Below are positions 169-8,892 of a DNA stretch of 10,492 nucleotides, in pieces. The notes beneath the pieces were generated by a model. It searched no databases, was not told the origin of the DNA, and saw only the letters and a list, made by a program, of their open reading frames with translations. Positions within the stretch are counted from its first letter, which is position 1. Each line of letters starts with the position of its first letter. A program made the position numbers and the translations under genes. The stretch is from Propionibacteriaceae bacterium (GTDB taxonomy: Bacteria; Actinomycetota; Actinomycetes; Propionibacteriales; Propionibacteriaceae), in contig DAIESZ010000241.1 of NCBI GenBank assembly GCA_027346035.1, forward strand, positions 1 through 10,492, read 5' to 3'.

Positions 169-2105
169 GGCGCCCCCACCTCGACGCGCTCGGGCGGAGC
201 GCCGGGAGTCGTCGGTGGGCTCACGCCGTCAGCCCCGTGGCCGTTCTCGCTGTAGCCGTAGAAGTCCTCCGTGACAACCGGGAGCACCTCGAAGTTCTCG
301 AGCGGGACCGGCGTCGGCGTCTGCCACTCCAGCGTGCGGGCACCCCACGGGTTGGCGCCCGCCACCTCGCCCGCACGCCAGGAGTGGATCAACGCCCCGA
401 GGAAGGTCAGCATCCCGAGCATGATCGTGTAGGCCCCGATGGAGGACACGAGGTTGCCGACGTGGAAGTACGTCCCGGGGTCGGCAACGCGACGCGGCTC
501 GGCTGCCAGGCCGACGGCGAACATCCCCATGAAGGTCACGTTGAAGCCCACCTGCGCCACCCAGAACCCGATCGCTCCCCACCGCTCGTCGAGCATGCGG
601 CCGGTCATCTTGGGGAACCAGTACGCGAGGGCGCCCATCGCGCCGGTCAGCCCGGCGCCCATGAGGGTGTAATGGAAGTGGGCGGTGACGAACATCGACC
701 CGTGCATGGCCTGGTCGACCGGGATGTCCGAGAGGTAGATGCCCGTGATCCCACCGATGGTGAAGTTCCACAGCAGCGCATAGACCGCCATGACGGGCAG
801 CCGCATCCACACCCGCCCTCGCCACAGCGTCCCGAGCAGGACGAGGAAGAGCAGGCCGGTCGGGATCGAGATCAGCTCGGTCGTCACCATGAAGGGACCG
901 CCGAGCACCGGCGCCCAGCCGCTGACGTACATGTGGTGGGCCCACACGAAGAGGCTGAGGCCAGCGATGCCGGCGATCCCGAGGACCGCACTCGTGAAGC
1001 TGAAGAGCGGCTTGCGCGTGAAGACCGGCGTGATCTCCATGAGCGCCACGATCGCCGGAAGCAGGATGACGTAGACCTCCGGATGTCCCATGAGCCAGAA
1101 GAGGTTCGAGTAGAGCCAGGCGCTCCCGCCGATCGACGCGTCGTAGAAGCCCGCTCCCATGCCGCGGTCCATGCCGAGCAGGATCATCGCCACCTCGAAC
1201 ATCGGGAAGGCGACCAGGCCGAGGGCCACACTGGCCACGGTGCCGAAGACGAAGATCGGCGTCCGCGACCACGACATACCGCGGGCGCGGAGCTTGACCG
1301 CCGTGGTCGTGATGTTCATCCCGGCCACACCGGTCGAGATGGCGAAGGTGACGATCGTGACGAGGAAGGCGTCCATGCCCCGGTTGGCCTGGTCGGCCAG
1401 GGGCGCGTAGGCGGACCAGCCGGTCGAGATGCCGCCGAGCACGAGCGCCGAGAGCAGGACCGGCACCGCGGCGAAGAGCAGCCAGAAGCTCAGGGCGTTC
1501 AGCCGCGGGAAGGACATGTCCCTCGCGCCGATCATGATCGGGAGGATGAAGTTGCCGAAGGGCCCGCTCACCATGACGATCGTCGCGATCACCATGATGA
1601 TGCCGTGGATCCCGACGAAGGAGTTGTAGGTCGCCGGGTCGACGAACCGGGATCCCGGCGTGATGAGGTTGGTGCGGATCAGCATCGCGAGCGTGCCGCC
1701 GCAGGCGAAGAGGACCATCGTGATGACGAGGTACTGCATCCCGACGACCTTGTGGTCGGTCGTGAACTTGAGGTAGCGCCACGCGCCGAGGTCCTTGCCG
1801 GCGAGATAGAGCTCGTCCTCGTGCGTGAGGTCCTTGCCGCGCAGCCACCGGACCGGGCCGACGAAGGCGCCCACGCCGACGAGGAAGCCCACGACCCACG
1901 CCACGAGGGTGAGGATGGTGACGGCGTCGTCCTTGTGGTCTCCGCTGTCGAGGGTGGGGAAGGTCGAGCTCGTCACCCACCAGGTGGCGGTGGCGAGGAG
2001 CAGTCCGGCCACGATGCCGGTGAACACGTTGAGCCGGCGCATCAGCCCCCCCGCCGCAGCGGGGGCTGCTGGCCGGGACGGAGCAGCGGTGGCGGACTGC
2101 GTCAC
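165..2105 (-). CDS. ctaD: Cytochrome c oxidase subunit I, heme-copper oxidase catalytic subunit
   Basis: 646-residue membrane protein, the site of O2 reduction and proton pumping. The GTG start at 2105 follows a strong AGGAGGT. Ligands align with mitochondrial COX I as follows: heme a His167 and His478, heme a3 His476, CuB His341 with His390-His391, Tyr345 for the His-Tyr cross-link in GHPEVY, and heme-propionate Arg538-Arg539. D-pathway residues Asn185, Asp196, Asn203 and Glu343 are present. Oddities: Leu419 stands where the K-pathway Lys319 (bovine) should be (IPTGLLF instead of IPTGVKVF). Met356-Glu357 replace Ser255-His256. The Mg-site HD pair is His468-Gly469. About 110 residues precede the canonical TTDHK helix-I start, with two extra membrane segments near 25-43 and 62-85. 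The C-terminal tail from about residue 576 is soluble. Family assignment is very secure; proton-pathway consequences are inferred. Confidence 0.96.
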   Translation of the reverse strand: MTQSATAAPSRPAAPAAAGGLMRRLNVFTGIVAGLLLATATWWVTSSTFPTLDSGDHKDDAVTILTLVAWVVGFLVGVGAFVGPVRWLRGKDLTHEDELYLAGKDLGAWRYLKFTTDHKVVGMQYLVITMVLFACGGTLAMLIRTNLITPGSRFVDPATYNSFVGIHGIIMVIATIVMVSGPFGNFILPIMIGARDMSFPRLNALSFWLLFAAVPVLLSALVLGGISTGWSAYAPLADQANRGMDAFLVTIVTFAISTGVAGMNITTTAVKLRARGMSWSRTPIFVFGTVASVALGLVAFPMFEVAMILLGMDRGMGAGFYDASIGGSAWLYSNLFWLMGHPEVYVILLPAIVALMEITPVFTRKPLFSFTSAVLGIAGIAGLSLFVWAHHMYVSGWAPVLGGPFMVTTELISIPTGLLFLVLLGTLWRGRVWMRLPVMAVYALLWNFTIGGITGIYLSDIPVDQAMHGSMFVTAHFHYTLMGAGLTGAMGALAYWFPKMTGRMLDERWGAIGFWVAQVGFNVTFMGMFAVGLAAEPRRVADPGTYFHVGNLVSSIGAYTIMLGMLTFLGALIHSWRAGEVAGANPWGARTLEWQTPTPVPLENFEVLPVVTEDFYGYSENGHGADGVSPPTTPGAPPERVEVGAP

Positions 2106-2136: not shown

Positions 2137-2898
2137 TCATGACGACGTCTCCGCGGGGTGCTGGAGCCAGGCGTTGAAGTCGGCCTCGCTCACGACGTGG
2201 ACGGTGGTCTGCATGTACGAGTGGTAGAGGCCGCACAGATCAGCGCAGCGGACCTGGAACGTCCCGATCTGCGTGGGGCGCACGGTCGCCACCGTCGTCT
2301 CGCCGGGATTGGCGTCGACCTTGATCCCGAGCTGGACGAGCCAGAAGGAGTGGACGACGTCCTTGGAGGTGACTCGGAAGGCGACCGTCTGACCCACGGG
2401 CAGGTAGAGATCGCTGGAGTCCTTGTTTCCCTCGTCCGGGTAGGTGAAGCTCCAAGCCCACTGCTGGCCGGTCACGTCGACGACGATGGGCTCTTGTGCC
2501 GGGTTGGCCTCGGCCGTCCTCGGTGCGATGACGACGAGTCCCCAGACGAGTAGGACCAGGCAGAGCACCCCGGACCCGAGGAGCCAGACGGTGAAGACCC
2601 GGCGGTTGTCGCGGAGCGGGTAGCCGTCCTCCATGGGCGGCTCGGAGCCGCGGTGCCGCCAGCGGAACGCGGAGTAGAGCAGGATGGCCCATACCAACGC
2701 GGCCACGGGGGCCGAGAGCCCGGTGAACCACGTGACCGTCGTCTCGATCTCCTGCATCGTCGGCGAGGCCGCTTGACCCATGAGCCGAGCCGGGATCGGC
2801 GCGAACAGCAGCAGGAGCAGCGTGAGGACGGCCCAGATGACGAGGATGGGGAATATGGGGGGACGGCGCCACGCCGGGCGCGCGCGCACCGGTTTCAT
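2137..2898 (-). CDS. ctaC: Cytochrome c oxidase subunit II with CuA centre
   Basis: 253 residues. Subunit II accepts electrons from cytochrome c at the CuA centre and passes them to heme a. Hydrophobic segments lie near residues 15-33 (signal anchor or cleaved signal), 60-79 and 102-124, followed by an extracytoplasmic cupredoxin domain. The aromatic electron-entry motif is QQWAWSF (145-151). The CuA ligands are complete: His183 in VVHSF, then Cys218, Cys222, His226 and Met229 in CADLCGLYHSYM. The residue between the cysteines that normally donates to Mg as Glu (bovine Glu198) is Asp220. The sequence ends soon after the CuA motif with no fused cytochrome c domain, so this is aa3-like rather than caa3 in subunit II. 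The ATG (2898) overlaps the stop of the upstream cupredoxin gene in an ATGA. Subunit I follows after 31 bases. Confidence 0.95.
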   Translation of the reverse strand: MKPVRARPAWRRPPIFPILVIWAVLTLLLLLFAPIPARLMGQAASPTMQEIETTVTWFTGLSAPVAALVWAILLYSAFRWRHRGSEPPMEDGYPLRDNRRVFTVWLLGSGVLCLVLLVWGLVVIAPRTAEANPAQEPIVVDVTGQQWAWSFTYPDEGNKDSSDLYLPVGQTVAFRVTSKDVVHSFWLVQLGIKVDANPGETTVATVRPTQIGTFQVRCADLCGLYHSYMQTTVHVVSEADFNAWLQHPAETSS

Positions 2899-3581
2899 GC
2901 GGTCACCGTCACGGTGCCGGACATGTAGCCGCGAGTGGACATCGCGTTCCCGAAGTTGGCGTAGGTGCCGTCACCGCAGGGGTATTCGCAGTTGAAGACG
3001 TACTCTCCGGGTCCTTTCGTCAGGAACGTGAACGTCACGACGTGGGGCTGGGGGTAGCCGTTGGCGAGGTTCTTCGCGTCGTCGGCCACCGCGGGCAGCG
3101 GCGCGCTGACGAAGAGTTCGTCCTGCCCGCTCTCGGCCAGACTGTGCAGGGTGAACGTGTGGCCGACGGCTTTCGAGTCGATCTCGGTCACGTCCTTGCC
3201 GTCGACGTTCTCTGTGCCGCCCACCGTGCCGTGGACCTTGGCGAAGTAGGGTTTGGTGATCTCCCCGCCGGTGTCGTACTGCTTGATGGTGATGGTGACG
3301 AGGCTGTGTGCGGGCAGCACCAGGTGGGTCGATGGCCCGTAGGTGACCCAGTCCGGATGTGTGCCACCGTCCGGGCCGTGCGGGCCCGCCATGCTGTCGG
3401 GCCACGTCTGCAGCTCGAGGTAGGCGTGCGGCACGCTGCCTTGAGGCGTCTGCGCCGTTCCGCGCACTACCGCGGTCAGCGGCGGCGGATCGCTCTGGGC
3501 GTGAGACACAGCGGCGCCTGTCAGTCCCAGTGCGACTGCACCGGCAAGGACCGTGGCGCCGACCCCTACGACACTCTTCAT
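2895..3581 (-). CDS. Secreted cupredoxin-like protein, first gene of the oxidase operon
   Basis: 228 residues from the ATG at 3581. That start was chosen because a clear signal peptide begins there: MKS, then a hydrophobic stretch to about residue 25, with likely cleavage after SHA (residue 28). A GTG at 3635 would add 18 charged residues and run through the palindromic operator, so it is unlikely. The C-terminal part reads like a cupredoxin fold related to the CuA domain: VGHTFTL (His141), then GEYVFNCEYPCG (Cys198, Cys202), ending GYMSGTVTV. It keeps the C-x3-C of CuA but lacks the following H-x2-M, so a normal binuclear CuA is unlikely. Possible roles are an accessory oxidase subunit, a copper carrier or an electron donor. 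It overlaps ctaC by four bases. I recognise the fold class, not a characterised protein. Confidence 0.8.
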   Translation of the reverse strand: MKSVVGVGATVLAGAVALGLTGAAVSHAQSDPPPLTAVVRGTAQTPQGSVPHAYLELQTWPDSMAGPHGPDGGTHPDWVTYGPSTHLVLPAHSLVTITIKQYDTGGEITKPYFAKVHGTVGGTENVDGKDVTEIDSKAVGHTFTLHSLAESGQDELFVSAPLPAVADDAKNLANGYPQPHVVTFTFLTKGPGEYVFNCEYPCGDGTYANFGNAMSTRGYMSGTVTVTA

Positions 3582-3607
3582 GCGCCCCCATACCTTCTCC
3601 CCGAGGC

Positions 3608-3625
3608 CGTCACAACGTTGTGACG
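3608..3625. promoter_or_regulatory. Perfect 18-base palindrome, likely operator of the oxidase operon
   Basis: CGTCACAACGTTGTGACG is a perfect inverted repeat, nine bases per arm with no spacer. It starts 26 bases upstream of the cupredoxin ATG at 3581, in the gap between two divergent operons. Its position close to the oxidase start suggests a repressor or activator site for a dimeric regulator. The half-sites (TCACA...TGTGA) are in the reverse order to CRP/FNR sites (TGTGA...TCACA), so a CRP-type regulator is not indicated. The regulator is unknown and is not evident in this window. Confidence 0.65.
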
Positions 3626-3631
3626 TAACGC

Positions 3632-3660
3632 ACACTGGCCCCCGGAACCCGGCAGTTCAA
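3632..3660 (-). promoter_or_regulatory. Weak candidate promoter for the oxidase operon
   Basis: On the minus strand, TTGAAC (3660-3655) and CAGTGT (3637-3632) are separated by 17 bases. The -35 is fair and the -10 is poor. If used, transcription would start at about 3625, so the 18-base palindrome would lie over the first transcribed bases, a usual place for a repressor site. The rest of the 177-base gap (3582-3758) shows no further element I can defend, including no clear promoter for the plus-strand ctaG operon. Confidence 0.3.
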
Positions 3661-3758: not shown

Positions 3759-4622
3759 ATGGCCCTGTGGCGCGAGGTGATGGACGCGTGGGTGTTTGCG
3801 CCCGTGCCGATCCTGCTCGCCACGGTGACCCTCCTCGCTTATGGCGTGGGCGTCCGGAAGGTCACCGCGTCGAGGGCGGCCGGCTGGGCGGGCCGCCGCA
3901 CCGCGGCATACGTGGCAGGGGTCCTCAGCGGCCTGTTCGCCATCGTGGGGCCCGCGGGAGCGCTCGACGGCACGTTCTTCACGGCTCACATGCTTCAGCA
4001 CCTGGTCCTCATGCTCGTTGCCGCGCCACTGGTCGTGATCGGCGCGCCCGTGCTGCTCCTGCTCGAAGCGAGCCCACCTCGGCTTCGGCGCCAGTGCGTG
4101 GTGCCTCTCCTCCGGAGCCGGCTGGCTCGATGGCTCACTCGGCCGGCCGTGGGGTGGGCCCTCTTTGCAGGGACCGTGCTCGGCACGCACTTCTCACCCT
4201 TCTACAACTACGCGATCGAGCACCCGCTGGTGCACGACTACGTCGAGCATCCGCTCTACCTCACGGTGGCGGTCATCTTCTACTACCCGCTCCTCGGGTC
4301 CAACCCGGTGCCCCACGGCCCGGCACCGCTGGTGCGGGTGCTCTCGCTCTTCCTCATGGCTGGGCCGATGACCATGGCCGGCTTCTTCATCTACACCGCG
4401 CGCAGTGTCCTCTACCCCGCCTACCTCAGTGGTGCGCGGACTTTCGGACCGGACCCGTTGGCGGACCAGCAGCTGGCGGGCGCCCTCATGTGGTGCCTCG
4501 GCATGGTCGTCGAGGTTGGCTGGGTGGCCCTGGCCGTCCCCGTGTGGCTGCGGGCGGAGGAGCGCCAGGCGCAGCGCCTCGACCCGCAGGTCCTGGACGG
4601 CCGCCCGGCCGGTGTCCCATGA
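3759..4622 (+). CDS. ctaG: Cytochrome c oxidase assembly protein, caa3-type CtaG family
   Basis: 287-residue membrane protein of the Caa3_CtaG family, which supports assembly of the oxidase, probably CuB delivery to subunit I. About seven hydrophobic segments are visible. Family landmarks are the AHMLQHLVLML block (His77, Gln80, His81), the loop with His160 and His164, SNPVP (181-185), and the late LADQQLAGALMW block (235-245). His and Met residues in these motifs are the likely copper-handling positions (inference). No good Shine-Dalgarno lies in front of the ATG at 3759; the nearest GAGG ends 23 bases away. The start could therefore be leaderless or slightly wrong. An in-frame ATG at 3780 is preceded too closely by GAGG. 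It is first in a plus-strand operon divergent from the oxidase subunits and overlaps the next gene by ATGA. Confidence 0.93.
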   Translation: MALWREVMDAWVFAPVPILLATVTLLAYGVGVRKVTASRAAGWAGRRTAAYVAGVLSGLFAIVGPAGALDGTFFTAHMLQHLVLMLVAAPLVVIGAPVLLLLEASPPRLRRQCVVPLLRSRLARWLTRPAVGWALFAGTVLGTHFSPFYNYAIEHPLVHDYVEHPLYLTVAVIFYYPLLGSNPVPHGPAPLVRVLSLFLMAGPMTMAGFFIYTARSVLYPAYLSGARTFGPDPLADQQLAGALMWCLGMVVEVGWVALAVPVWLRAEERQAQRLDPQVLDGRPAGVP

Positions 4623-5017
4623 CCGCCAGGCAGCCGCGTCGCCCCGTGTCGCGACGGGCCCGCCGCCTGACCGGTGCCACCGTCGCGGGCGTCGTGCTGT
4701 GTCTCAGTGCAGGCGCCTTCGAGCTCAGCCGCGCCCTGGGCGGCAACTCGCTCAGCTGGGTGTACACGATCGAGTGGCCGCTGATCGCGGCCTACGGGAT
4801 CTACATCTGGCACAAGCTGATCTCCGAGGAGTCCCAGGCGGCCCAGACCGCCCAGCCGGCGCGCCCGTCGAGCACCACGGCGAGCACGGCGACGATGCCG
4901 GAGGAGCCGCCACCCGCGGCTGCCGACGCCGGGCTGACCGCGTGGCAGGACTACCTCAGCCGGCTGCACGCCGCGGACCCACCGGGCGGCCCCCCAGCAC
5001 GAGAGCCGAACACGTGA
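4619..5017 (+). CDS. Small membrane protein between ctaG and sco
   Basis: 132 residues, starting at an ATG inside the ctaG stop (ATGA) and ending inside the GTGA start of the Sco gene. The N-terminus is very basic (residues 4-18). A hydrophobic segment follows near 20-38, then an LSWVYTIEWPLIAAYGIYIWHKL stretch that forms a second segment near 46-66. The tail is Ala/Pro/Thr-rich and disordered, followed by a short soluble end with the pattern WQDYLSRLHAA. The aromatic WVYTIEWP block resembles small uncharacterised actinobacterial membrane proteins I have seen next to respiratory genes, but I cannot name a family. Its position between two copper-loading factors suggests an accessory role in oxidase assembly. 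Confidence 0.82.
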   Translation: MTARQPRRPVSRRARRLTGATVAGVVLCLSAGAFELSRALGGNSLSWVYTIEWPLIAAYGIYIWHKLISEESQAAQTAQPARPSSTTASTATMPEEPPPAAADAGLTAWQDYLSRLHAADPPGGPPAREPNT

Positions 5018-5793
5018 GGACAGCCGCACGGGCGCGCGAGCTGGCGGTCGCTGTCCTGGGGGGCCTGCTGCTCACGTCGTGCGCCTCGCCGGGCCCGGCC
5101 CCCGACGCGACGGCTGCGCGCGCCGACGGACCGGCCAGCGGCACCGTCGTGAGCCGGGCGGTGCCCCAGTCCGTCAGCTCGCTGCCGCTTCGCGACCACC
5201 TGGGCCGGCCCTTCACGCTCGAGTCCCTGCACGGGAAGGTCGTCGTGCTCAGCGACTTCCTCACGACGTGTCAGGAGGTGTGCCCGATGACGAGCGTCAC
5301 GCTGCGGGATGTCGCCGATGCTGCCAGACGGGCGGGCCTCGGGAGCCAGGTCGAGGTCCTCGAGGTCACCGTCGACCCGGAGCGCGACACGCCACCTCGG
5401 CTCGCGGCATACCAACGCCTTTTCGGTGCTCGCGAGAACTGGCGCTTCGCGACCGGGCGTCCCGCCGATGTGGCCCGGCTCTGGCAGTTCTTCGGGGTCG
5501 CCTACGGCCGGACCCCCGACCACCCTCCGTACCCCAGGGACTGGCTCACCGGCGAGCCGCTCACCTACGCCGTCATGCATCAGGACGTCGTCTTCGTCAT
5601 CGACCGCCAGGGACGGGAGCGTTGGCTCACCGTGGGGCCGGCGGCCACGGGCGGGGCTCAGCCACCACCCACCCTCCGGGCCTTCCTCAACGACGAGGGC
5701 CGGACCAACCTCGCCTCCCCCGGTGCGGCGTCGTGGACGGCGCGCGACGTCGAAGCGGCCGTCGCCTGGGCAGGCGGGGAGAAGATCGGTTGA
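5014..5793 (+). CDS. sco: Sco/SenC-family copper chaperone lipoprotein
   Basis: 259 residues from GTG 5014, overlapping the previous stop by four bases. Sco proteins load copper into the CuA site of subunit II and have a thioredoxin fold. The N-terminus is a lipoprotein signal with lipobox LTSC (Cys23 becomes the lipidated first residue), followed by a linker. The thioredoxin-like domain starts near residue 57 (LPLRDHLGRPFTLESL). The copper ligands are present: Cys86 and Cys90 in TCQEVCP, and His189 in YAVMHQDVVFVID. The VTVDPERDTP block (118-127) is typical of the family. The C-terminus extends about 50 residues past the fold (from about 210) with the pattern SWTARDVEAAVAW. It probably serves the CuA site of the subunit II encoded in this window. 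Confidence 0.93.
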   Translation: MRTAARARELAVAVLGGLLLTSCASPGPAPDATAARADGPASGTVVSRAVPQSVSSLPLRDHLGRPFTLESLHGKVVVLSDFLTTCQEVCPMTSVTLRDVADAARRAGLGSQVEVLEVTVDPERDTPPRLAAYQRLFGARENWRFATGRPADVARLWQFFGVAYGRTPDHPPYPRDWLTGEPLTYAVMHQDVVFVIDRQGRERWLTVGPAATGGAQPPPTLRAFLNDEGRTNLASPGAASWTARDVEAAVAWAGGEKIG

Positions 5794-6023: not shown

Positions 6024-6040
6024 CGACTGGGCACCCGTGT
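6011..6040. repeat. Imperfect inverted repeat around the gntR promoter
   Basis: Left arm ACACGGTG (6011-6018) pairs with right arm CACCCGTGT (6032-6040) except for one unpaired base, with a 13-base centre. Arm centres are about two helical turns apart and the TTGACG box lies between them. It could be an operator for the GntR-type regulator encoded just downstream, or a weak hairpin at the end of the preceding operon. No T-run follows, so it is not a typical intrinsic terminator. Confidence 0.35.
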
Positions 6041-6049
6041 GCCTAAATG
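6020..6049 (+). promoter_or_regulatory. Candidate promoter of the gntR/acyl-CoA operon
   Basis: TTGACG (6020-6025) is a near-consensus -35, followed after 18 bases by TAAATG (6044-6049), a moderate -10. The next bases, through 6067, form an unusually AT-rich island in this GC-rich region. Transcription would begin near 6056, leaving a leader of about 34 bases with AGGAGG before the GTG at 6090. The -35 overlaps the stop codon of the preceding gene, and no terminator separates the two operons. Confidence 0.45.
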
Positions 6050-6079
6050 GCCGTACATATTCTGCAAAGGGCCGTTGCG

Positions 6080-6085
6080 AGGAGG
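6080..6085 (+). promoter_or_regulatory. Shine-Dalgarno sequence that fixes the gntR start
   Basis: AGGAGG lies four bases before the GTG at 6090. This favours that start over an in-frame GTG at 6039, which has no ribosome binding site and would lie upstream of the predicted transcription start. Confidence 0.75.
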
Positions 6086-6089
6086 CCGC

Positions 6090-6857
6090 GTGTCGAGCGC
6101 CGAGAGGCAGACCGCGTTCCGACGGGTCGCCGACGACCTGCGCACGGCCCTGGCGGGTGACTCCTTCGCCGCAGGTGTGCCGCTGCCGACAGAGGCCGAG
6201 CTCTGCGACCGCTACGGTGTCAGCCGGCAGACGGTGCGTCGGGCCTTCCAGGACCTCGTCGCCGAGGGTCTGGTCGTGCGGGTGCCCGGCCGGGGCACGT
6301 TCCCGGCGAGCGGCGACGGGCGCTACATCCGGCAGCTCGGCTCAATCGAGGACCTCATGGCCCTGTCCGCGGACAGTGCCCTGCAGGTCCTCGACCCGCT
6401 GACCGGAAGCGTCGACCCCGCGGCGGCGGGGCGGCTGCACCTGCCGGACGACCGGGTCTTCACCGCGAGCTTCGTGCGCCTCCACGACGGACGGCCCTTC
6501 GGGCACACCCGCGTCCACCTGCCGCCCGCCGTGGGGCGGCGACTGGCCGAGGCCCCCGAGCTGGCGGGCCCCGGGCGCACGAGCACGGTCACCGTCATCG
6601 GCCTGTTGGACCAGCTGCTCGACGAGCCGATCGCGGAGGCGGAACAGAGCATCGCCGTCGCGTCTGCGCCACCCGACGCCTCGGCGGCCCTGGGCCTCGC
6701 GGAGGGTGCGGCCGTCCTCCGAGTCGACCGCACCTACCTCGACGGCGCCGGGACCCCCGTGGAGCTCGCCGTGAGCCACTTCCACCCCGAGCGCTACACG
6801 TACCGCGTCCGCCTGCGGCGCTCCCGACCACCACGACGAGAGGACCGAGCCCCATGA
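6090..6857 (+). CDS. GntR family transcriptional regulator, HutC subfamily (UTRA effector domain)
   Basis: 255 residues from GTG 6090. The N-terminal winged helix-turn-helix covers about residues 5-72, with the family hallmarks PLPTEAELCDRYGVSRQTVRRAF (31-53) and the wing VRVPGRGTF (63-71). Residues of about 85-245 match a UTRA small-molecule-binding domain; landmarks are VFTASFVRLHDGRPFGHTRVHLP, the EPIAEAEQSI block and the VLRVDRTYLDGAGTPVELAVSHFHPERY ending. HutC-type regulators usually repress neighbouring catabolic genes until an intermediate binds the UTRA domain. The stop overlaps the acyl-CoA dehydrogenase start by ATGA, so the regulator is co-translated with the genes it probably controls and may autoregulate through the dyad at 6011-6040 (inference). 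The ligand is probably a C5 acid or its CoA ester. Confidence 0.93.
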   Translation: MSSAERQTAFRRVADDLRTALAGDSFAAGVPLPTEAELCDRYGVSRQTVRRAFQDLVAEGLVVRVPGRGTFPASGDGRYIRQLGSIEDLMALSADSALQVLDPLTGSVDPAAAGRLHLPDDRVFTASFVRLHDGRPFGHTRVHLPPAVGRRLAEAPELAGPGRTSTVTVIGLLDQLLDEPIAEAEQSIAVASAPPDASAALGLAEGAAVLRVDRTYLDGAGTPVELAVSHFHPERYTYRVRLRRSRPPRREDRAP

Positions 6858-8047
6858 GTCCCACCAGTCCCCCGCATCCCGGCACTCCCATGGAAGGGCT
6901 GAACGAGGAGGAGCGGGCCGTCGTCGAGACGGTGCGCGCCTTCGTCGACCGTGACGTCAGGCCGGTCGCCCGCGAGCTCGACCACAGCAACACCTACCCG
7001 GAGAAGCTGATCGAGCAGATGAAGCAGCTGGGGATCTTCGGCCTCGCCATCCCGGAGCCGTGGGGCGAGGTGAAGGTGAGCACGCCGTGCTACGCACTGG
7101 TCACCGAGGAGCTGTCCCGCGGCTGGATGAGTCTGGCCGGGGCGATGGGCGGGCACACGGTCGTGGCCAAGCTCATCCTCGACCACGGCACCCAGGAGCA
7201 GAAGGACGCCTACCTGCCGAGGATGGCGACCGGCGAGCTGCGGGCGACCATGGCCCTGACGGAGCCGGGCGGCGGGTCTGACCTGCAGGCCATGCGCACG
7301 ACCGCGCGGCGCGACGGCGACCACTACGTCGTCAACGGGTCGAAGACGTGGATCACCAACGCCCGCAAGGCCGGCCTGATCGCCCTGCTCTGCAAGACCG
7401 ACCCGTCGGCCGAGCCGGCACACCGCGGGATCAGCATCCTGCTCGCCGAGAAGGGGCCCGGGTTCTCCCTCTCGCGCGACCTGCCCAAGCTCGGCTACAA
7501 GGGGGTCGAGAGCTGTGAGCTGGCCTTCGACGACTTCCGCGTCCCGGCTTCGGCGCTGCTCGGCGAGCAGGAGGGTCGGGGGTTCGGGCAGATGATGCGC
7601 GGCCTGGAGATCGGCCGGATCCAGGTGGCGTCGCGGGCGCTGGGCGTGGGGCGGGCGGCCCTCGAGGACTCGCTGCGCTACGCCCAGGAACGGGAGAGCT
7701 TCGGCGTGCCGATCTGGAAGCACCAGTCGATCGGCAACTACCTCGCCGACATGGTCACCAAGCTCACCGCCGCGCGACAGCTCGTCCTTTATGCCGCGCG
7801 GCGCTATGACTCCGGCGAGCGCGCCGACATGGAGGCCGGCATGGCGAAGCTCTTCGCGTCCGAGACGGCGATGCAGATCGCCCTCGACGCGGTCCGGATC
7901 CACGGCGGTTACGGCTACTCCACCGAGTTCGACGTCGAGCGCTACTTCCGCGATGCACCGCTCATGATCGTCGGCGAGGGCACCAACGAGATCCAGCGCA
8001 ACGTCATCGCCCGGCAGCTCATCGGCCGCGGGACGGTGGCCCCGTGA
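6854..8047 (+). CDS. Acyl-CoA dehydrogenase, FAD-dependent
   Basis: 397 residues, the usual length. The family oxidises an acyl-CoA to the 2,3-enoyl-CoA and passes electrons to ETF. The N-terminal helical domain covers about 15-130. The FAD/substrate beta domain follows, with MALTEPGGGSDL (133-144) and WITNA (166-170). The C-terminal helical domain includes RESFGVPIWKHQSI. The catalytic base aligns to Glu375 in VGEGTNEIQR, the same place as medium-chain acyl-CoA dehydrogenase Glu376. The KLGYKGVESCELAFDDFRVP region is typical of the short/branched-chain group. It overlaps both neighbours by four bases. Next to citramalyl-CoA-type enzymes, likely substrates are methylsuccinyl-CoA or another short branched or dicarboxylic acyl-CoA. 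It lacks the N-terminal extension I associate with the ethylmalonyl-CoA-pathway methylsuccinyl-CoA dehydrogenase, so the substrate stays open. Confidence 0.95.
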   Translation: MSPTSPPHPGTPMEGLNEEERAVVETVRAFVDRDVRPVARELDHSNTYPEKLIEQMKQLGIFGLAIPEPWGEVKVSTPCYALVTEELSRGWMSLAGAMGGHTVVAKLILDHGTQEQKDAYLPRMATGELRATMALTEPGGGSDLQAMRTTARRDGDHYVVNGSKTWITNARKAGLIALLCKTDPSAEPAHRGISILLAEKGPGFSLSRDLPKLGYKGVESCELAFDDFRVPASALLGEQEGRGFGQMMRGLEIGRIQVASRALGVGRAALEDSLRYAQERESFGVPIWKHQSIGNYLADMVTKLTAARQLVLYAARRYDSGERADMEAGMAKLFASETAMQIALDAVRIHGGYGYSTEFDVERYFRDAPLMIVGEGTNEIQRNVIARQLIGRGTVAP

Positions 8048-8892
8048 GCGTCCCGTCGGCCCGGTCCGCGCCCGCTGTGGCGCGCACGATGCTGTTCGTG
8101 CCCGGCGACCGGCCCGACCGGTTCGCCAAGGCCGCCGCGAGCGGCGCCGACCTCGTCGTGTGCGACCTCGAGGACGCGGTCGCGCCCCAGCAGAAGGAGG
8201 CGGCCCGGAGCGCCGTTTCCGACTGGCTGGGCGCCGGTGGGCGCGCCGCCGTACGCGTCAACTCCGTCGACACCGAGTGGTATGCCGCGGACTGCGACGC
8301 GCTGTCGGGCCTGTCCGGTCTCGAGGCCGTGCTCGTGCCCAAGGCCGAGGGCCCCGAGGCGCTGGCCCGCCTCGCGACCCGGCTCGGCGGCATACCCCTC
8401 GTCGCGCTCGTCGAGACAGCACTGGGCCTGCATCGCGCGGTCGAGCTCGCGTCCAGCCCCGGTGTCGTGCGGCTCGCCTTCGGCGCCATCGACTTCGCGC
8501 TCGACGCCGGCACGGCCGACGACGACGAGGCGCTGCTCTACGCCCGTTCCGGTCTGGTCGTGGCCTCCCGGGTCGGCGGGCTGGGGCAGCCGGTGGACGG
8601 GGTCACGGTCGCCCTCGACGACCCCGAGGCAGCCGCGCGGGACGCTGTCAAGGCGCGTCGCCTCGGGTTCGGGGGCAAGCTGTGCATCCACCCCCAACAG
8701 GTCGGGCCCGTGAACGCGGCGTTCAGCCCGACGGCCGCGGAGATCGAGCACGCCCGCCGCCTCGTCGGCGCGGCCGGTGCGGGAGCCGCCACGCGGGTGG
8801 ACGGCCAGATGGTCGACGTGCCGGTGCTCGAGCGTGCCCAGCGCATCCTGGCCCAGGCCGAGCTGTCCGCCGGGCCGGCACAGGAGCGGTGA
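8044..8892 (+). CDS. CitE-like acyl-CoA lyase (HpcH/HpaI aldolase family), candidate (S)-citramalyl-CoA lyase
   Basis: 282 residues from GTG 8044 (GTGA overlap with the previous stop). The family is a TIM barrel that cleaves or forms C-C bonds of malyl-, methylmalyl- or citramalyl-CoA with Mg2+. Visible motifs are LFVPGDRPDRFAKA (17-30), VVCDLEDAV (38-46), AVRVNS with Arg71, VPKAEG (98-103), ALVETALGL with the Mg ligand Glu124, FGAIDFALD with the Mg ligand Asp150, and GKLCIHPQQV (211-220). Length and sequence fit the stand-alone CitE-like lyases rather than the citrate lyase beta subunit, since no citrate lyase alpha/gamma or ACP genes are nearby. Between a CoA transferase and a mesaconyl/itaconyl-CoA hydratase-like gene, (S)-citramalyl-CoA to acetyl-CoA plus pyruvate is the best guess. 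L-malyl-CoA or beta-methylmalyl-CoA are alternatives. Confidence 0.9.
   Translation: MSVPSARSAPAVARTMLFVPGDRPDRFAKAAASGADLVVCDLEDAVAPQQKEAARSAVSDWLGAGGRAAVRVNSVDTEWYAADCDALSGLSGLEAVLVPKAEGPEALARLATRLGGIPLVALVETALGLHRAVELASSPGVVRLAFGAIDFALDAGTADDDEALLYARSGLVVASRVGGLGQPVDGVTVALDDPEAAARDAVKARRLGFGGKLCIHPQQVGPVNAAFSPTAAEIEHARRLVGAAGAGAATRVDGQMVDVPVLERAQRILAQAELSAGPAQER

Follow-up and report, generated by a model that had tools for sequence, protein, structure and literature searches.

The window, a 10,492-nucleotide stretch that is one whole contig of a Propionibacteriaceae genome (2.43 Mb, 384 contigs, 77% complete), encodes an A-type haem-copper oxidase in which the K-pathway has been lost from both subunit I and subunit II. 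At the level of the aligned sequences, this loss goes with the gain of Glu410 and Ser413 on helix VIII of subunit I and, in the main clade of such enzymes, with retention of the D-pathway. Glu410 and Ser413 occurred together in 468/468 rows that lack the K-pathway lysine (348 from one row set and 120 A2-like homologues; these rows are clustered by sampling, and the number that matters is that of changes of state, which is three). Glu410 was found in 0/103 Lys-bearing rows (47, plus 56 non-duplicates out of 59 further loci). The K-pathway counts as indispensable to A-type oxidases, and it is still debated whether its lysine serves to deliver protons or to compensate charge. On balance, we consider it probable that the window encodes an A-type oxidase without a K-pathway that is fed through the D-pathway, with Glu410-Ser413 by the haem a3 tail as a compensating site. 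It is a candidate for a working oxidase, its activity being predicted from sequence. The features of the window are collected in Table 1.

Table 1. Features of the window and of the oxidase subunits encoded in it (residue numbers are those of the window proteins unless a reference enzyme is named)
Feature	Position	Strand	Observation
Subunit I, COX1/CtaD-like, 646 aa	165..2105	minus	two extra N-terminal TM helices
Gly469 (place of bovine Asp369)	699..701	minus	mostly Asp in other groups
Asp460 (bovine 360)	726..728	minus	Asp in 219/219 main-clade rows and in the 120 A2-like homologues listed
Leu419 in place of the K-pathway lysine (bovine Lys319)	849..851	minus	non-Lys in 468/468 Glu410 rows
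Ser413 (position of bovine Ala313)	867..869	minus	Ser in 468/468 Lys-less rows
Glu410, helix VIII	876..878	minus	sole column in which every Lys-less group has gained a protonatable residue
Met356-Glu357, helix VI (bovine S255-H256)	1035..1040	minus	Met in place of the K-pathway Ser; Glu ordinary
Tyr345 (bovine Y244), cross-link tyrosine, helix VI HPEVY motif	1071..1073	minus	395/395 rows, five groups
Glu343 (bovine E242), D-pathway inner end, kept	1077..1079	minus	219/219 E_main rows
Asp196 (bovine D91), D-pathway entrance, kept in the window protein	1518..1520	minus	alignment
Subunit II (CoxB), complete CuA motif CADLCGLYHSYM	2137..2898	minus	TIGR02866 168.7 bits (cut-off 147.7); PF00116
Subunit II Phe102, place of the K-pathway entry Glu (bovine SUII E62, R. 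sphaeroides E101)	2593..2595	minus	alignment
Exported cupredoxin-like protein (CUP)	2895..3635	minus	directly upstream of subunit II
caa3-type CtaG assembly factor	3759..4622	plus	PF09678 194 bits; divergent from the operon
ORF with SCO1/SenC copper chaperone domain (residues 262-404)	4405..5793	plus	PF02630 71.8 bits
GntR/UTRA regulator, acyl-CoA dehydrogenase and CitE-like lyase genes	6039..8892	plus	probably an unrelated catabolic operon

All ligands of haem a, haem a3 and CuB were retained in the window subunit I, the metal ligands being H341, H390, H391, H476 and H478 (bovine H240, H290, H291, H376 and H378). These ligands and Tyr345 were intact across the groups, except for one Lys-bearing row that was gapped at both helix X histidines. 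The D-pathway set N185, D196, N203 and E343 (bovine N80, D91, N98 and E242) was complete. From the window alone, the original prediction had read subunit I as lacking the K-pathway lysine while keeping the D-pathway and the cross-link tyrosine, and all three parts of this reading stood. Three members of the K-pathway set were lost (L419, M356 and subunit II F102), and Thr416 (bovine Thr316) was the only member kept. The AlphaFold model of subunit I (mean pLDDT 87.1, pTM 0.89) placed the extra N-terminal helices at residues 27-48 and 58-78, and the protein scored 517.4 bits against the NCBIfam CtaD_CoxA equivalog TIGR02891, below the curated cut-off of 670.75. The nearest named relative among the matches listed was that of Intrasporangium chromatireducens Q5-1 (90% over 623 residues). 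Because the three further COX1 matches of the same genome (L001, L002 and L004, some of them partial) all carry the lysine, the window enzyme is an additional oxidase.

The register that places Leu419 at the position of Lys319 is secure, because Thr409, Ile412, Pro415 and Gly417 are common, wholly or mostly, to Lys-less and Lys-bearing oxidases, the closest solved chains align to the window subunit I without gaps within helix VIII, and the model superposes over the whole chain on R. sphaeroides aa3 (1.4 Å over 491 residues). A misalignment of helix VIII was ruled out on these grounds. A substitute lysine elsewhere in the protein was also rejected, since the group-specific lysines (120, 429, 431 and 578 in E_g3; 590 in E_main) differ between the Lys-less groups.

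The E-type rows comprised the loci found together with the best 120 of 7,854, 7,996 and 7,998 scored homologues of three queries. Lys-bearing rows came from Actinomycetota, Chloroflexota and seven named plasmid records (five Pseudomonadota, two Actinomycetota); the 59 further Lys-bearing loci were the best-scoring ones and test the Lys-bearing rows only. Phyla beyond Actinomycetota and Chloroflexota were hardly sampled, iron-oxidisers such as Acidithiobacillus are not represented, and L181, which is not A-type, was excluded from the state counts. In the first alignment of 205 rows, 202 were without the lysine and all 202 had Glu at 410; the three Lys rows were the paralogues from the window's own genome. 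According to their record titles, the first-found loci belonged to Actinomycetes, Acidimicrobiia, Thermoleophilia/Solirubrobacterales, and Ktedonobacteria or other Chloroflexi. One of the Lys-less operons, an aerobic oxidase operon in a record titled as a Bifidobacterium breve MAG (L038), probably carries a wrong organism label.

Three Lys-less groups were distinguished. The main clade (E_main) was present in at least 8 of 246 Actinomycetota genomes, the window's own included, as judged from the 30 best loci, which also placed the A2-like group (E_A2) in at least 2 genomes and E_g3 in at least 4. Of 201 Chloroflexota genomes, 15 had the main clade and 7 the A2-like group among the loci read, the partly masked L145 being left out. 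E_A2 has the A2-type helix VI motif YSHPAVY and was represented by 9 rows and by 120/120 of the homologues listed, among whose names were Thermoflexus, Dehalococcoidia, SAR202, Ilumatobacteraceae and Armatimonadota. E_g3 (L102, L104, L105 and L111) has an ordinary short-loop actinobacterial aa3 sequence with the Glu410 motif, and the motif was present in 120/120 of its homologues among the matches listed. The nearest solved structures to members of all three groups are Lys-bearing, that of E_g3 being a mycobacterial aa3.

Columns 112-611 (500 columns) were scored for the gain of a protonatable residue, defined as its presence in 90% or more of the rows of every Lys-less group but in less than 50% of those of both Lys-bearing groups, and for its loss, defined as the reverse. 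By this measure, 410 alone was gained and 419 alone was lost. Over columns 100-614, the two states were fully separated by 410, 413 and 419, and the next best column was 373 (score 0.87). Columns 373 (mostly Met, Ile or Leu versus Ala or Val between the states) and 377, both on helix VII, differ with state and plausibly fill the space vacated by the lysine. An absolute specificity of Ser413 was weakened in the Lys-bearing sample: Ala was present at 413 in 47/47 rows of one set, and 2 Ser and 3 Gly were found among the 59 further loci, so that E410 alone is exclusive to the Lys-less state. The original prediction had named Glu357 and Glu410 as candidate replacements for the lysine and had asked whether they are co-conserved with its loss. 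The co-conservation of Glu410 held up, as it accompanies the loss in every row examined; Glu357 was dropped, since Lys-bearing oxidases carry it too.

The K-pathway was likewise lost at its entry in subunit II. In R. sphaeroides, E101 at the start of the K-pathway is called essential in the available part of PMC9687966. Glu was present at the corresponding position in 42/42 Lys-bearing loci and in 52/52 further non-duplicates, as against 3/101 Lys-less loci (otherwise Q in 43, V in 29, T in 8, other residues, and one masked). The three exceptions rule out a strict loss. A further 24 subunit II rows had no assigned state, their subunit I copy having been dereplicated; Glu occurred in 4 of these, namely the Lys-bearing L173-L175 (copies of L138, L140 and L141) and the Lys-less L076. 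Among 253 subunit II columns, the entry position was the most state-dependent, and it was L, I and I in the three E_g3 loci that include a subunit II. In the alignments, the two ends of the K-pathway, which lie in two genes, are thus lost together. The CuA motif residues Cys, Cys, His and Met were conserved in 74/74 aligned subunit II rows.

Two trees, one quick (57 rows) and one careful (56 rows), were computed with columns 404-424 excluded. Three changes of state were needed on both, and the starred branches force three on the 57-row tree. In the 56-row tree, E_g3 was nested among Lys-bearing aa3 oxidases (supports 99/87, 99/93 and 99/95), and L171 (E) was sister to L172 (K) with support 100/99; the placement of L154 and the deepest split of this tree were weakly supported. 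Forcing all E rows into a single clade cost 111 log units (p-AU 5.6e-8, in a test whose group was chosen after viewing a first tree), and a single change of state was rejected by this test and by both trees. The trees are unrooted and do not distinguish gain from loss. In three independent pairs, E410 and S413 tracked the lysine each time, subunit II E62 in about 1.9 and Ser255 in 1, and E343 did not track it consistently. With three independent comparisons, statistical significance is out of reach (sign test, p 0.25).

An acid was present at the D-pathway entrance (196, 197 or 203) in 217/217 ungapped main-clade rows. Asp196 itself was gone in 42 of these, with the acid shifted to 203 or 197. 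Part of the main clade (L058-L084 and L151-L160) has a remodelled entrance, in which Glu takes the place of Asn203 and Asp196 is exchanged, for Arg in 34 rows and otherwise for another residue; Glu203 was present in 38/219 main-clade rows. Because the entrance acid is kept in 217/217 rows, even in the 42 without Asp196, we favour the D-pathway as the sole entry. The A2-like Lys-less group has no Glu343 (Ala in 9/9 rows and in 120/120 homologues listed), so a D-only route in that group has to run through the A2 version of the pathway.

According to the available part of PMC12901375, the O→E proton, at the least, comes through the K-pathway in ordinary enzymes, the K319M substitution blocks the reduction of haem a3 in this step, and K319 may also act in charge compensation. 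Since K319M blocks haem a3 reduction, compensation of some kind is required in K-less enzymes, and with the pathway absent the O→E proton must come from elsewhere. As the single gained carboxylate, Glu410 is the natural candidate for the holder of the missing proton or charge. We infer the following sequence of events for the window enzyme. All chemical and pumped protons would enter by the D-pathway, including the proton for the first reduction of oxidised haem a3/CuB. Glu410, acting via Ser413 and Thr416 next to Tyr345 and the farnesyl tail of haem a3, would hold the proton or charge of Lys319. The step through Thr416 would not be universal, since this residue is replaced by Phe, Ile or Val in 13/219 main-clade rows. 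Electrons would arrive via CuA of subunit II, possibly from the cupredoxin-like protein of the operon. Feeding through D alone, pumping, the part played by Glu410 and the identity of the electron donor would all follow from this reading of the sequences.

Glu410, whose position we take to be that of bovine Met310, lies about 13 Å towards the P side of 419 and about 180 degrees round helix VIII in an ideal helix, in which 419, 413 and 410 are at -60, +60 and +120 degrees from Thr416; a helix break at 412, before Pro415, in the AlphaFold model makes these angles approximate. Ideal helix geometry thus suggests that Glu410 is a different site from 419 rather than a like-for-like substitute. Ser413 and subunit II Ser109 occupy the places of bovine Ala313 and subunit II Pro69, and the Ser413 position presumably corresponds to R. 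sphaeroides A356. In the parts of the two papers that were available, bovine Ala313 and subunit II Pro69 touch the haem a3 farnesyl tail (PMC5947679), and A356 is among the residues outlining the K-channel (PMC9687966). From the tail contacts of Ala313 and Pro69 and from the role of A356 as a channel outline residue, Glu410-Ser413 would flank the haem a3 tail, above the old K-channel.

The same contact could mean that Glu410 and Ser413 are a structural adaptation round haem a3, to the type of its tail or to packing, in an enzyme for which the K-pathway is dispensable and Glu410 carries no protons. Besides the contact of bovine Ala313 with the tail (available part of PMC5947679), the covariation of subunit II 109 and of helix VII columns 373 and 377 with state speaks for such a role. 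We nevertheless think it quite improbable, as it leaves unexplained why the sole gained protonatable residue tracks the sole lost one in every lineage, and why the entry Glu has gone from subunit II as well.

A second pathway from the N side would be another way to supply protons, running along the interface of subunits I and II (helices VIII and IX, subunit II TM2 and the haem a3 tail) to Glu410-Ser413 and on to Tyr345. Position 109 of subunit II would contribute to it: Ser or Thr is present there in 93% of main-clade rows, including the window (Ser109), and in 100% of the 9 A2-like Lys-less rows, forming a polar patch with Glu410 and Ser413, whereas the Lys-bearing groups have mostly Pro109 (94% of K_A2 and 68% of K_A1 rows). 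In E_g3, helix IX has Asp454 in 107/120 rows, which would fit the same path. However, the Ser/Thr109 change is missing in the three E_g3 loci, which have P or G, and no new polar track was seen: in subunit I, only 410, 413 and 460 combined polar residues in each of the Lys-less groups with their absence from one Lys-bearing group or more, and of these 460 is Ser in most E_g3 and variable among Lys-bearing rows. We therefore regard an interface pathway as unlikely, though not quite to the degree of the structural role, and retain feeding through the D-pathway with Glu410-Ser413 as the compensating site. Where position 454 of the E_g3 oxidases (L102, L104, L105, L111 and P0122-P0241) is not Asp, it is Asn (13/120); the other groups have mostly Thr or Ser there, and Asp/Asn454 is a possible partner of Glu410.

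The loss of K-pathway residues also raises the question of whether the enzyme is a proton-coupled oxidase at all, rather than a degenerate or NO reductase-like protein, or one that takes its protons from the outer side. The NO reductase glutamate is three residues before Pro. Glu410 is five before Pro, at H+19 of the window sequence HHMYV...E410, and HPEVY is the oxidase form of the helix VI motif. NO reductases (cNOR/qNOR) too have a Glu after the His pair, their motifs being HHx(Arom)(Arom)x17E and H-x-(Arom)-x-E in the available part of PMC3084760, but neither motif occurs in the window protein, and the NOR Glu is at H+21, a different helix position from H+19. An identity of Glu410 with the NO reductase Glu was rejected on this basis. 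Since the haem and CuB ligands, Tyr345, the CuA ligands and the D-pathway acids are all kept, an enzyme that is not proton-coupled seems very improbable, and we proceed with a D-fed oxidase.

The genes for the cupredoxin-like protein, subunit II and subunit I form a tight operon. CUP has five invariant residues (H159, C216, C220, M232 and M238, each in 66/66). No Pfam or NCBIfam family was found for it, with scattered weak matches only in a scan of 36 relatives, and its profile gave a weak match to auracyanin B (E 0.013) at the Cys loop. CUP was encoded upstream of subunit II in 48/48 E_main loci having at least 1.7 kb of upstream sequence; as a universal partner of the swap it was set aside, the flanks in the other groups being too short for a count. 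It may be the copper electron carrier for the Lys-less oxidase. In relatives, a subunit III-like gene is often next, and the window contig ends before that point; of four such genes tested, one reached Pfam COX3 and two matched QoxC weakly.

CUP resembles AcoP of Acidithiobacillus ferrooxidans as described in the available part of PMC4059628: both are single-domain, exported, cupredoxin-like proteins encoded with cytochrome c oxidase genes, and both have a Cys-Met spacing of 12 residues (C159/M171 in AcoP, C220/M232 in CUP). The copper ligands of AcoP are H85, C159, H166 and M171, with the spacing C-x6-H (PMC4059628, same part). Compared with that description, CUP differs in two ways: its Cys-Met interval contains no conserved His, and a further Cys, C216, is invariant.

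In comparison with the A1-type aa3 oxidases of M. smegmatis, R. sphaeroides and bovine mitochondria, the window enzyme lacks K319 and subunit II E62 and has Glu410/Ser413 and two extra N-terminal TM helices. It also has Gly at the place of bovine Asp369, as do 218/219 main-clade rows; bovine Asp369 is one of the ligands at the Mg site, close to the proton exit. Like the R. sphaeroides K362M mutant (3om3), it has a non-polar residue in place of the same lysine within the same fold, but K362M was engineered, whereas the substitution seen here occurs in nature and goes with Glu410 and Ser413 in 468/468 rows.

Degli Esposti et al. 2021 (PMC8239418, available part) describe COX1 proteins with two extra N-terminal helices as a basal group, with iron-oxidisers among its members, and refer to variants of the K-channel. 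As in this '2TM' group, the window has both extra helices and a linked caa3-type CtaG; unlike in it, the swap also occurs in the E_g3 branch, which is without the long N terminus. The original prediction had left room for the sequence falling into an already described K-less clade, and this applies in part: extra-helix COX1 is described, but the available text of PMC8239418 on 2TM COX1 makes no mention of the Glu410/Ser413 swap or of the loss of subunit II E62. No description of the swap was found in searches of an open-access library that omits most subscription journals. What appears to be new here is accordingly the Glu410/Ser413 swap with the loss of the subunit II entry as a variant, the extra-helix COX1 being known from PMC8239418 (available part).

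Tentatively, and at somewhat less than even confidence, we suggest that A-type oxidases exist in two interchangeable wirings, one with Lys319 and the K-pathway and one with E410/S413 and no K-pathway in either subunit. In the latter, the carboxylate by the haem a3 tail would do the lysine's job, and protons would arrive via D or a new interface path; with at least three switches between the two, the K-pathway would not be obligatory for pumping. The swap recurs on at least three tree branches and makes the long-standing question of proton supply testable. A natural family in which the pathway is lost in two subunits and one intramembrane carboxylate is gained is a ready-made experiment on the purpose of the lysine. 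Such a family would show that protons of the reductive phase can arrive another way, and it gives a three-residue swap for a well-studied enzyme.
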